A program made the translations under genes and the position numbers. 64,000 bases of DNA from positions 310,001 through 374,000 of the forward strand of contig NZ_AUFX01000006.1 of assembly GCF_000426725.1 (NCBI RefSeq), read 5' to 3'. The notes under the pieces were generated by a model, which was not told the origin of the DNA, ran no database searches, and saw only the letters and a list, made by a program, of their open reading frames with translations. This document shows positions 45,815 to 48,002 of the stretch, in pieces. This stretch comes from Sporocytophaga myxococcoides DSM 11118. Lineage in GTDB: Bacteria > Bacteroidota > Bacteroidia > Cytophagales > Cytophagaceae. Positions within the stretch are counted from its first letter, which is position 1; the number at the start of each line of letters is the position of its first letter.

Positions 45815-46144
45815 ATGAACTGGATATATCTTTCTCTCGCAATCGTGACAGAAGTTGTAGGCACAGTGATGATCCGATTTTCGAATAGTTTTTCGAAGAT
45901 CATACCTACTATTTTAATGATAGCTTTTTATATCGTAAGTTATTATTTCTTTAACCTGTCCATTAAAAAAATTGAGCTTGGTACTGCTTATGCTGTATGG
46001 TCAGGCGTTGGCACTGCATTACTTACAGCAGTTGGGATGCTTGTTTTTAATGAAAGTATTTCTCTAAGCAGAGTTATAGCCATCACTCTTATTCTTATTG
46101 GAGTACTAATACTCAACTTATCAGGATCATCTTCACAGGCATAA
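45815..46144 (+). CDS. SMR-family small multidrug/guanidinium exporter
   Basis: The 109-residue protein has four membrane helices and the SMR signature: the essential glutamate E13 in IVTEVVGT (E14 of EmrE), then YAVWSGVGTALLTAVG and a final helix ALTLILIGVL-like. It should export cationic compounds or guanidinium in exchange for protons. Paired SMR genes are common, but only one is present. It lies behind a large inverted repeat and ahead of a strong terminator. Confidence 0.93.
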   Translation: MNWIYLSLAIVTEVVGTVMIRFSNSFSKIIPTILMIAFYIVSYYFFNLSIKKIELGTAYAVWSGVGTALLTAVGMLVFNESISLSRVIAITLILIGVLILNLSGSSSQA

Positions 46145-46165
46145 AAAATGATGGCATATAAATAA

Positions 46166-46204
46166 AGAGAGGTTGTTCAAAAGATGCAGCCTCTCTTTTT
46201 TTAT
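46166..46204 (+). terminator. Intrinsic terminator after the SMR gene
   Basis: AGAGAGGTTG pairs with CAGCCTCTCT (one G-T pair) across 11 bases, followed by seven T residues. It is the first element of a repeat-rich spacer. Confidence 0.88.
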
Positions 46205-46210
46205 TTCCGG

Positions 46211-46230
46211 TGGTGTCGGGTCTTTCGACC
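46211..46230 (+). repeat. Palindromic repeat copy 1 (TGTCGGGTC-TTTC-GACC type)
   Basis: TGGTGTCGGGTCTTTCGACC is the first of four related copies in 700 bp (46211, 46580, 46825 and 46870). It pairs in opposite orientation with the copy at 46580-46600, so the two bracket about 350 bp of hairpin-rich DNA. Confidence 0.6.
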
Positions 46231-46409
46231 ATAGCTATCAATTTAACAGATTTGATTGATGCCATAACCTAAAGCGATGGCAGAATTATTAAGTTCATGC
46301 CTTTGCTTGAGCCTGAATCAACTGGCATTTTTTAAATTTTATGTATTGAGTTCAAATAACATGGTTTAGTTATTTTTCAGTTTATTAAGAATTTTTTGAG
46401 GAAAGTGCA

Positions 46410-46525
46410 GACCTCGGAGAGGTCATATGTTTATAGTTACTACCTGAAAAATAGCATACGACCCCATTGGGGTCGCATCAATACTACATTCGCTTTTCTA
46501 TAAATATTCAATCCCTTCAGGATTG
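46410..46525. repeat. Three-hairpin repeat block with CTATAAA-type boxes
   Basis: Three short perfect hairpins lie close together: GACCTC/GAGGTC (46410-46424), CGACCCC/GGGGTCG (46459-46475) and CAATCC/GGATTG (46509-46525). The first and last are each preceded, on opposite strands, by CTATAAACATAT or CTATAAATATTC. This gives a head-to-head layout. Blocks like this are scattered through Bacteroidota genomes in my recollection. No frame is coding. Confidence 0.6.
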
Positions 46526-46579
46526 TAAATAAATGAATAAAGCGATTGTTAAAATTATAAAACAGTTAAGCTGACACAT

Positions 46580-46600
46580 GGTCTTTCGACCCGACATCAC
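46580..46600 (-). repeat. Palindromic repeat copy 2, inverted
   Basis: GGTCTTTCGACCCGACATCAC, read on the minus strand, matches copy 1 over TGTCGGGTC and differs mainly in the central TTTC/GAAA, which is self-complementary in orientation. Confidence 0.55.
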
Positions 46601-46625
46601 TGAAATACCCAATCCGCTAAATCAG

Positions 46626-46660
46626 AAAGGGCTGTCTTCTTAATAAAGACAGCCCTTTTA
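46626..46660. terminator. Orphan terminator-like hairpin
   Basis: AAAGGGCTGTCTT and AAGACAGCCCTTT form a perfect 13-bp stem with a 7-base loop, followed by TATTTATGG. No gene ends just before it on either strand, so it may be a relic, a transcript boundary of an unseen RNA, or a back-up for the SMR terminator. Confidence 0.6.
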
Positions 46661-46743
46661 TTTATGGTACAACTTCGAAGATTAGAAAGCCAAACTTCGA
46701 GCAAAAACCTTAAGCAATAGAACTTTTACCTGACATTTTGCTA

Positions 46744-46823
46744 GTAAAAGCTGACGTGACGGAGCTTTTTGTTAACATTTGTAAGGTAAAAGCTCACATG
46801 ACGGAGGTTTTTGCTGACATTTC
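46744..46823 (+). repeat. Two tandem copies of a 42-bp unit (TGACGGAG repeat)
   Basis: Units at 46744-46785 and 46786-46823 share GTAAAAGCT-x-AC-x-TGACGGAG-x-TTTTTG-x-T-x-ACATTT. A partial copy of the start/end (TTTTACCTGACATTTTGC) precedes them. Differences are few. There is no open frame and no spacer structure like CRISPR. Confidence 0.6.
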
Positions 46824-46824
46824 C

Positions 46825-46897
46825 TGTGGTGTCGGGGTCTTTCGACCCGAAACATTTAAGAGATAGTGTGTCAGGTCGGAAAGACCTGACACCACAA
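46825..46897. repeat. REPIN-like inverted pair of palindromic repeats
   Basis: TGTGGTGTCGGGGTCTTTCG.. (from 46825) and its near reverse complement ending ACCTGACACCACA (46870-46897) face each other across about 20 bp. The right arm can itself fold as TGTCAGGTC-GGAAA-GACCTGACA. Length about 73 bp and layout fit a REPIN: two REP-type palindromes in inverted orientation. Confidence 0.6.
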
Positions 46898-46976: not shown

Positions 46977-48002
46977 TTACCCAAGAAAGGTAAACTGCTT
47001 CAGGAATCTCACGTCATTCTCTGTGAACAAGCGAAGATCTTTGATCTGGTATTTAAGCATGGTAATTCTTTCAATACCCATACCGAAAGCATAACCTGAA
47101 TATTTCTTAGAATCAATCTTTGAGTTTTCAAGTACGTTAGGATCAACCATTCCTGAACCACCGATTTCAACCCATCCTGAATGTTTACAGATATTGCAGC
47201 CCTCACCCTTACAGATCAGACAGCTGATATCAATTTCCGCACTGGGCTCAGTAAAAGGGAAAAATGAAGGTCTGAATCTAAGTTTAGTATCTTTTCCAAA
47301 CATCTCTTTCACAAAGTGGTAAAGTGTCTGCTTAAGATCTGCAAAGCTTACATTTTCATCTATGTACAAACCTTCTACCTGATGAAACACGCAATGTGCT
47401 CTGGCAGATATCGCTTCATTTCTATAAACTCTTCCTGGAGATAAAGTCCTGATGGGAGGCTTCTGATTTTCCATCACCCTCACTTGCACAGAAGAAGTAT
47501 GCGTTCTTAATGCAATGTCAGGATTTTTCTCAATGAAAAATGTATCCTGCATTTCTCTTGCCGGATGGTTCAGTGGGAAGTTCAGGGCAGTAAAGTTATG
47601 CCAGTCATCTTCAATCTCAGGCCCTTCGGAAAGGTTGAATCCCATGCGCTCGAATATCTGGGTAATTTCTTCACGCACCATAGAAAGAGGATGACGTGTA
47701 CCATTCTGATCAGGAATTCCAGGGAGCGTCAGATCTTTTCCTGAAGAAGCATTTTGTGAAGCCGCCTGTTCAAACACTTCTGTAAAGTGGAGAAGCTTAG
47801 CCTGTGCTGCATTTTTAAGAACATTCAGCTCTGCACCCATTGCTCTCTTTTCTTCATTGGGTACTTGCTTCAGTAGGTCGAATAATTCAGTAACCTTACC
47901 TTTTTTGCTTACAAACGTTAGTCTGAATTTCTCAAGACTATCTTTAGTATCTATCTGAAATTGCTCTATTTCTTCCGAAATGCCTTTTATCTTATCTAAC
48001 AT
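46977..48002 (-). CDS. pheS: Phenylalanine--tRNA ligase, alpha subunit
   Basis: PheS is the catalytic subunit of the alpha2-beta2 enzyme that charges tRNA-Phe. The 341-residue class II synthetase has an N-terminal coiled-coil (about 1-85), motif 2 around RTLSPGRVYRNEAISARAHC, the stretch HCVFHQVEGLY, and motif 3 GYAFGMGIERITMLKY. Length is normal. pheT is not in the window, as is usual in Bacteroidota. Its promoter ends almost at the ATG, which predicts a leaderless mRNA. Confidence 0.97.
   Translation of the reverse strand: MLDKIKGISEEIEQFQIDTKDSLEKFRLTFVSKKGKVTELFDLLKQVPNEEKRAMGAELNVLKNAAQAKLLHFTEVFEQAASQNASSGKDLTLPGIPDQNGTRHPLSMVREEITQIFERMGFNLSEGPEIEDDWHNFTALNFPLNHPAREMQDTFFIEKNPDIALRTHTSSVQVRVMENQKPPIRTLSPGRVYRNEAISARAHCVFHQVEGLYIDENVSFADLKQTLYHFVKEMFGKDTKLRFRPSFFPFTEPSAEIDISCLICKGEGCNICKHSGWVEIGGSGMVDPNVLENSKIDSKKYSGYAFGMGIERITMLKYQIKDLRLFTENDVRFLKQFTFLG

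Follow-up and report, generated by a model that had tools for sequence, protein, structure and literature searches.

Elements with IS231-type ends at the centres of REP hairpins in Sporocytophaga myxococcoides and other Bacteroidota

Elements with IS231-type ends are located at hairpin centres far above chance in Bacteroidota, in several unrelated families of REP palindromes, and one of them, a 351-bp MITE, is found in the window, that is, the whole 64,000-nucleotide stretch of the Sporocytophaga myxococcoides DSM 11118 genome that was analysed. The REPs of this locus were very probably spread by a RAYT, after which the IS4/IS231-type MITE was inserted in trans at a palindrome centre by cuts 3 bp outside the loop. 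The broader reading, in which a DDE (IS4/IS231-like) transposase lineage spread through the Bacteroidota would target the centre of almost any REP palindrome, with the loop setting the duplication (3+L+3) and symmetry or a hairpin being read and not a sequence, is about evenly poised between right and wrong; mobile elements of a second class would then live in the REPs that RAYTs have spread.

The convergent genes for an SMR transporter and PheS flank a cluster of four palindromes, which the sequence-only reading had described as two inverted pairs; all four are present, about where it had placed them. Repeat finding gives inverted arms at 46205–46232/46578–46605 for the outer pair (28 nt, 75%) and at 46825–46854/46867–46896 for the inner pair (30 nt, 77%). 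The features of the interval are as follows.

45815–46144, plus strand: left-hand neighbour, encoding a 109-aa small multidrug resistance transporter of the SMR family (Pfam Multi_Drug_Res, 103.5 bits)
46158–46204, plus strand: terminator-like hairpin with T-run, 3' of the SMR gene (inverted repeat I3 then T-run; conserved in G017)
46210–46229, no strand: interrupted REP, left half, which takes in the loop plus 3 bp from the opposite arm (from sequence; restored palindrome 12/13 pairs)
46220–46229, no strand: target duplication, copy 1, GTCTTTCGAC (3+4+3; direct repeat)
46230–46580, no strand: 351-bp MITE whose IS231-type ends are decayed, CATAGCTATCAATTTAAC ... (reverse complement) CATGTGTCAGCTTAAC (copies elsewhere in the genome, with 89.6% and 88.5% identity)
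46410–46525, no strand: block of three small hairpins inside the MITE, GACCTCGGAGAGGTC, GACCCCATTGGGGTC and AATCCCTTCAGGATT (BLAST matches outside the MITE)
46581–46590, no strand: target duplication, copy 2, GTCTTTCGAC (direct repeat)
46581–46600, no strand: interrupted REP, right half (restored palindrome)
46626–46658, no strand: terminator-like hairpin AAAGGGCTGTCTT/AAGACAGCCCTTT, then T-rich sequence (inverted repeat I5)
46825–46896, no strand: REPIN, two REPs in inverted orientation with loops TTTC and GGAAA and a shortened spacer (inverted repeat I1; aligned with G017 REPINs)
46977–48002, minus strand: right-hand neighbour pheS, for the 341-aa alpha subunit of phenylalanine-tRNA ligase (TIGR00468, 320 bits, cut-off 237)

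Only the inner pair held up as an inverted pair; judged by its sequence, the outer one (46211/46580) is a single REP cut at its loop by the 351-bp MITE, and no REPIN. The left half reads GTGGTGTCGG-GTCTTTCGAC and the right half GTCTTTCGAC-CCGACATCAC, with the loop TTTC in the same direction in both, and the 10-bp GTCTTTCGAC is an exact direct repeat (46220–46229 and 46581–46590). The halves have an exact 12-bp direct repeat, GGTCTTTCGACC, in common, 10 bp of which are the target duplication. Removal of one GTCTTTCGAC copy and the intervening 351 bp gives a palindrome with 12 of 13 stem pairs and the loop TTTC. The common loop direction and the direct repeat thus indicate one palindrome opened by an insertion. 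It has to be weighed against this that both pairs can be drawn as inverted repeats and that the genome has RAYT-like genes, as expected if a RAYT in trans had mobilised both as whole REPINs, of which the outer would be a long one; but loop direction and target duplication rule this out for the outer pair, the segment between its halves recurs in other palindromes without these halves, and the RAYTs of this genome are outside the cognate clade (see below), so that we regard the explanation as highly unlikely. Apparent long REPINs may accordingly be single REPs that another element opened, which calls for caution. The inner pair, called REPIN-like in the earlier reading, is by its alignment a shortened REPIN: 46825–46896 aligns with heterodimers of one GTCGGG-type and one GTCAGG-type REP in the congener G017 but has its own, shortened spacer, and RAYT genes flanked by the same palindrome are found in relatives.

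The MITE has terminal inverted repeats, a target duplication and several copies, with ends that have drifted in the window copy, and it contains no transposase and no ORF of 80 aa or more. Its copies in the genome, 89.6% and 88.5% identical, are at C12:61253–61636, inside another REP of the same family with the duplication GTCTTCCGAC, and on contig C21 (L189), in a different palindrome with TCCTTCAGGA on one side and TCCTGAAGGA on the other. Since copies lie in other palindromes, the REP halves are the target and not part of the element. The window and C12 copies both end in halves of this REP family, as they would if the outer unit of about 395 bp were one mobile element with the REP halves in its terminal inverted repeats, but the third copy of the same 351 bp and related MITEs are in unrelated palindromes and the boundaries are CATAG/CTATG in every case, which makes this explanation highly unlikely. 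Contig C9 (158 kb) has both ends inside one MITE copy with the flanks of the C12 copy, and may be circular or joined to C12; as the C12 copy also spans both C9 ends with the same flanks, one site has possibly been counted twice. The hairpin block at 46410–46525 has BLAST matches outside the window MITE, in L107, L046 and the otherwise unlike MITEs L203 and L204. The combination GACCTC..GAGGTC-ATATGTTTATAG and GACCCC..GGGGTC of this block is common to otherwise unlike 350-bp MITEs, and is also found in an array flanking an IS200-like tnpA (L046 857–2971, G016:C3).

The end of the MITE family, CATAGCCGTCAACTTAA, fits the signature CAT-------AA--TAA of the IS231 subgroup; in the window copy the left end fits, and the right end has drifted from the consensus and does not. 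Members of this subgroup have such ends, make duplications of 10–12 bp, and were almost only found in Firmicutes in the survey that described them (PMC2266710). We regard the MITE family as probably IS231-like on account of its ends, a label that does not extend to subgroup membership of a transposase. The searches of this genome brought up no transposase whose ends match, and the only IS4-type gene that a profile found there has ends CATTACTGTCCGGTAAAAAA. The mover would be an IS231-like transposase such as that of an IS in G017, which has ends CATAGCCGTCAGGTTAAG with AGG where the MITEs have AAC, and encodes an IS4-family DDE transposase with YRYRWQIELVFKTWK, the YREK motif Y(2)R(3)E(6)K; a search for this transposase in six other genomes gave no match. 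The G017 element (G017:C9:138074–139534; L097 1275–2735) is an IS4-type IS of 1461 bp that truncates the cognate RAYT of this congener. Its two flanks match different hairpins, GGCGATTGTATCGCC on the left and CCTCGTTTGCAACGAGG on the right, as recombination between two sites might leave them, and its own duplication is therefore unreadable.

Target choice was surveyed by scanning named genomes for one exact 17-mer end, which gave at least 114 stretches, mostly from Bacteroidota, copies in related genomes being partly non-independent. An end was scored as located at a hairpin when it abuts a 3-bp stem, a loop of 3–5 nt and a second 3-bp stem (3+L+3). The Sporocytophaga loci and the named-genome stretches, pooled and made non-redundant, comprise 146 distinct ends among the matches listed, and 77 of these are at hairpin centres, whereas 200 rounds of flank shuffling gave 7.5 on average and never more than 18. 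For the loci of this genus the figure is 23 of 30 ends, against 1.5 at shifted positions, and for the named genomes, some of them from the same genus, 54 of 116 ends among the matches listed, against 5.7. In the wide survey roughly one end site in two, among the matches listed, is something other than a simple hairpin. Elements of G018 that are of IS4 type with other ends, taken as a contrast set, are located in AT-rich sites without long palindromes. The palindromes hit include the unrelated types GTC-TTTC-GAC, TCC-TTCA-GGA, GTG-CAGA-CAC and GTG-TGC-CAC. At sites that retain the two ends and an exact duplication, the 3+4+3 hairpins have a duplication of 10 bp, and the sites with a 3-nt loop, which come from few lineages, one of 9 bp (6/6 among the matches listed), indicating that the duplication follows the loop. 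Non-hairpin sites mostly have 10 bp. Compared with the IS231 range of 10–12 bp, the 10 bp at 4-nt loops and at most other sites is within it, and the 9 bp at 3-nt loops is below it.

Short symmetric target words are a known feature of IS231A and IS10, and targets of the present family are often GTG...CAC or GTC...GAC. It is therefore possible, if doubtful, that the MITE family prefers G/C-edged words of 9–10 bp that are common in REPs by chance, the palindrome or hairpin form playing no part. Against such a word preference, TCC...GGA, CCC...GGG, CTC...GAG and GTT...AAC are also used, the outer flanks pair too (at 5–6 of 6 positions in most hairpin cases), and the duplication length follows the loop length. 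In the preferred reading the enzyme would recognise both palindrome arms, either as two duplex half-sites whose spacing is elastic or as an extruded hairpin, and not one sequence.

The REPs themselves are a multi-copy family above chance and are not unique to this locus, as a genome-wide search of the kind proposed in the sequence-only reading makes clear: GTGTCRGGTCKWWMGACC with up to two mismatches has 26 strand matches in the 6.34-Mb genome (21 contigs), against 3 for the reversed-pattern control. With one mismatch, genomes of the same family have from none up to 72+72 strand matches, the highest number in G008 (control 0) and most of them in one sister genus, where adjacent copies are often 58–69 bp apart with opposite loops, which is the REPIN layout. 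The base of the hairpin, examined for a GTAG-type foot, has GTGG in the Sporocytophaga copies, but not in the sister genus. In the literature library searched, no paper on the exact repeat sequences came up, and the Sporocytophaga papers found do not bear on these repeats. A run of short ATCCCACAGAGATTCCGTGGGA-type repeats is located upstream of one REP copy (L006 1200–1290; G000:C6, about 123 kb).

Among the ORFs examined there is no RAYT gene in the window, in agreement with the earlier reading, which supposed that an enzyme encoded elsewhere acts in trans. RAYT-like genes do exist elsewhere in this genome (G000), six in number, at C1:293155, C5:323720, C6:307655, C7:62311, C11:79105 and C21:27391, but those inspected adjoin other palindromes, and in the tree none of the six (0/6) belongs to the cognate clade. 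Beside most of the six there is a palindrome family proper to them, such as GTGGCCTGTC..GACAGGCCAC at C1 and C21 and CGCGTTTGTAACGCG at C11. Four Y1_Tnp genes considered as partners of the window REPs were rejected, three being located beside other REPs and one being IS200-like. A RAYT flanked by the same palindrome, the gene to look for according to that reading, was not found here and is present in relatives, a sister genus among them. In G008:C33 and G005:C30 a 178-aa protein is encoded between inward-facing copies of the window REP, and that of G008 matches the NCBIfam model for REP-associated tyrosine transposases (NF047646) with 104.9 bits at a cut-off of 80. G005:C371 has a RAYT with a loop variant of the REP, G016:C13 a degenerate RAYT between REPs of both types, and G017:C9 the RAYT copy truncated by the 1461-bp IS; these five form one well-supported clade. 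As no RAYT of this genome is in this clade, the window REPs look like relics of a RAYT since lost, and with the matching enzyme in relatives, action in trans would here be possible only through a mismatched RAYT.

The gene order SMR-pheS is conserved in 3/3 Sporocytophaga congeners, G016, G017 (Sporocytophaga sp. BIN9) and G018 (Sporocytophaga sp. 29_gen). The interval contains neither REP nor MITE in G016 and G018, and one REP only, near pheS, in G017, and the cluster looks like a gain within the genus. Its location between two convergent genes, beside terminator-like hairpins, might suggest that the palindromes are terminators or mRNA stabilisers for SMR and pheS kept by selection; this is unlikely, since two congeners with the same gene order lack them, there are only a few, degenerate copies here, and the interval contains separate terminator-like hairpins. 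Between the MITE and the REPIN, at 46724–46822, TAAAAGCTGACGTGACGGAGCTTTTTG and TAAAAGCTCACATGACGGAGGTTTTTG are segments that resemble each other, at a distance of about 84 bp. In G018 pheS is in two frames with one TGA (C9:969766–970789), perhaps a sequencing error in the MAG, and other repeats (CATAGGGCTCCACCCTATG) are present in the interval downstream of it.

In the history preferred here, the interval would first have gained REP/REPIN elements spread by a RAYT in this lineage, and a DDE transposase acting in trans would later have inserted an IS4/IS231-type MITE into one REP; we infer this order, REP gain before MITE insertion. With its cuts placed symmetrically about the centre of the palindrome, 3 bp beyond the loop on either side, this transposase would have duplicated the loop together with 3 bp to its left and 3 bp to its right.

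Like REPIN/RAYT systems (NF047646), the locus has intergenic palindromes that occur in many copies and as inverted pairs, and in relatives the same palindrome flanks a RAYT; in this genome, however, the cognate RAYT is missing, the few copies present are decayed, and a clear GTAG foot was not seen. The ends CAT-------AA--TAA, duplications of about 10 bp and the YREK motif in the related IS of G017 are shared with the IS231 subgroup and IS231-derived miniature elements, whereas the present elements are found in Bacteroidota and have REP hairpin centres as targets (PMC2266710). A handful of ISs are known to insert into REPs; ISPsy8 and, in the IS4 family, ISRm22 do so at the symmetry axis, and hybrid flanks in these cases were put down to recombination between copies (PMC1525189). 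Mismatched flanks occur here too. Each of these two precedents, the closest ones, uses a single REP type and a duplication of constant length, 6 bp for ISRm22 and 3 bp for ISPsy8 (PMC1525189), whereas what appears to be new here is that one family enters many unrelated palindromes and that its duplication length varies with the loop, a combination that points to target choice by symmetry.
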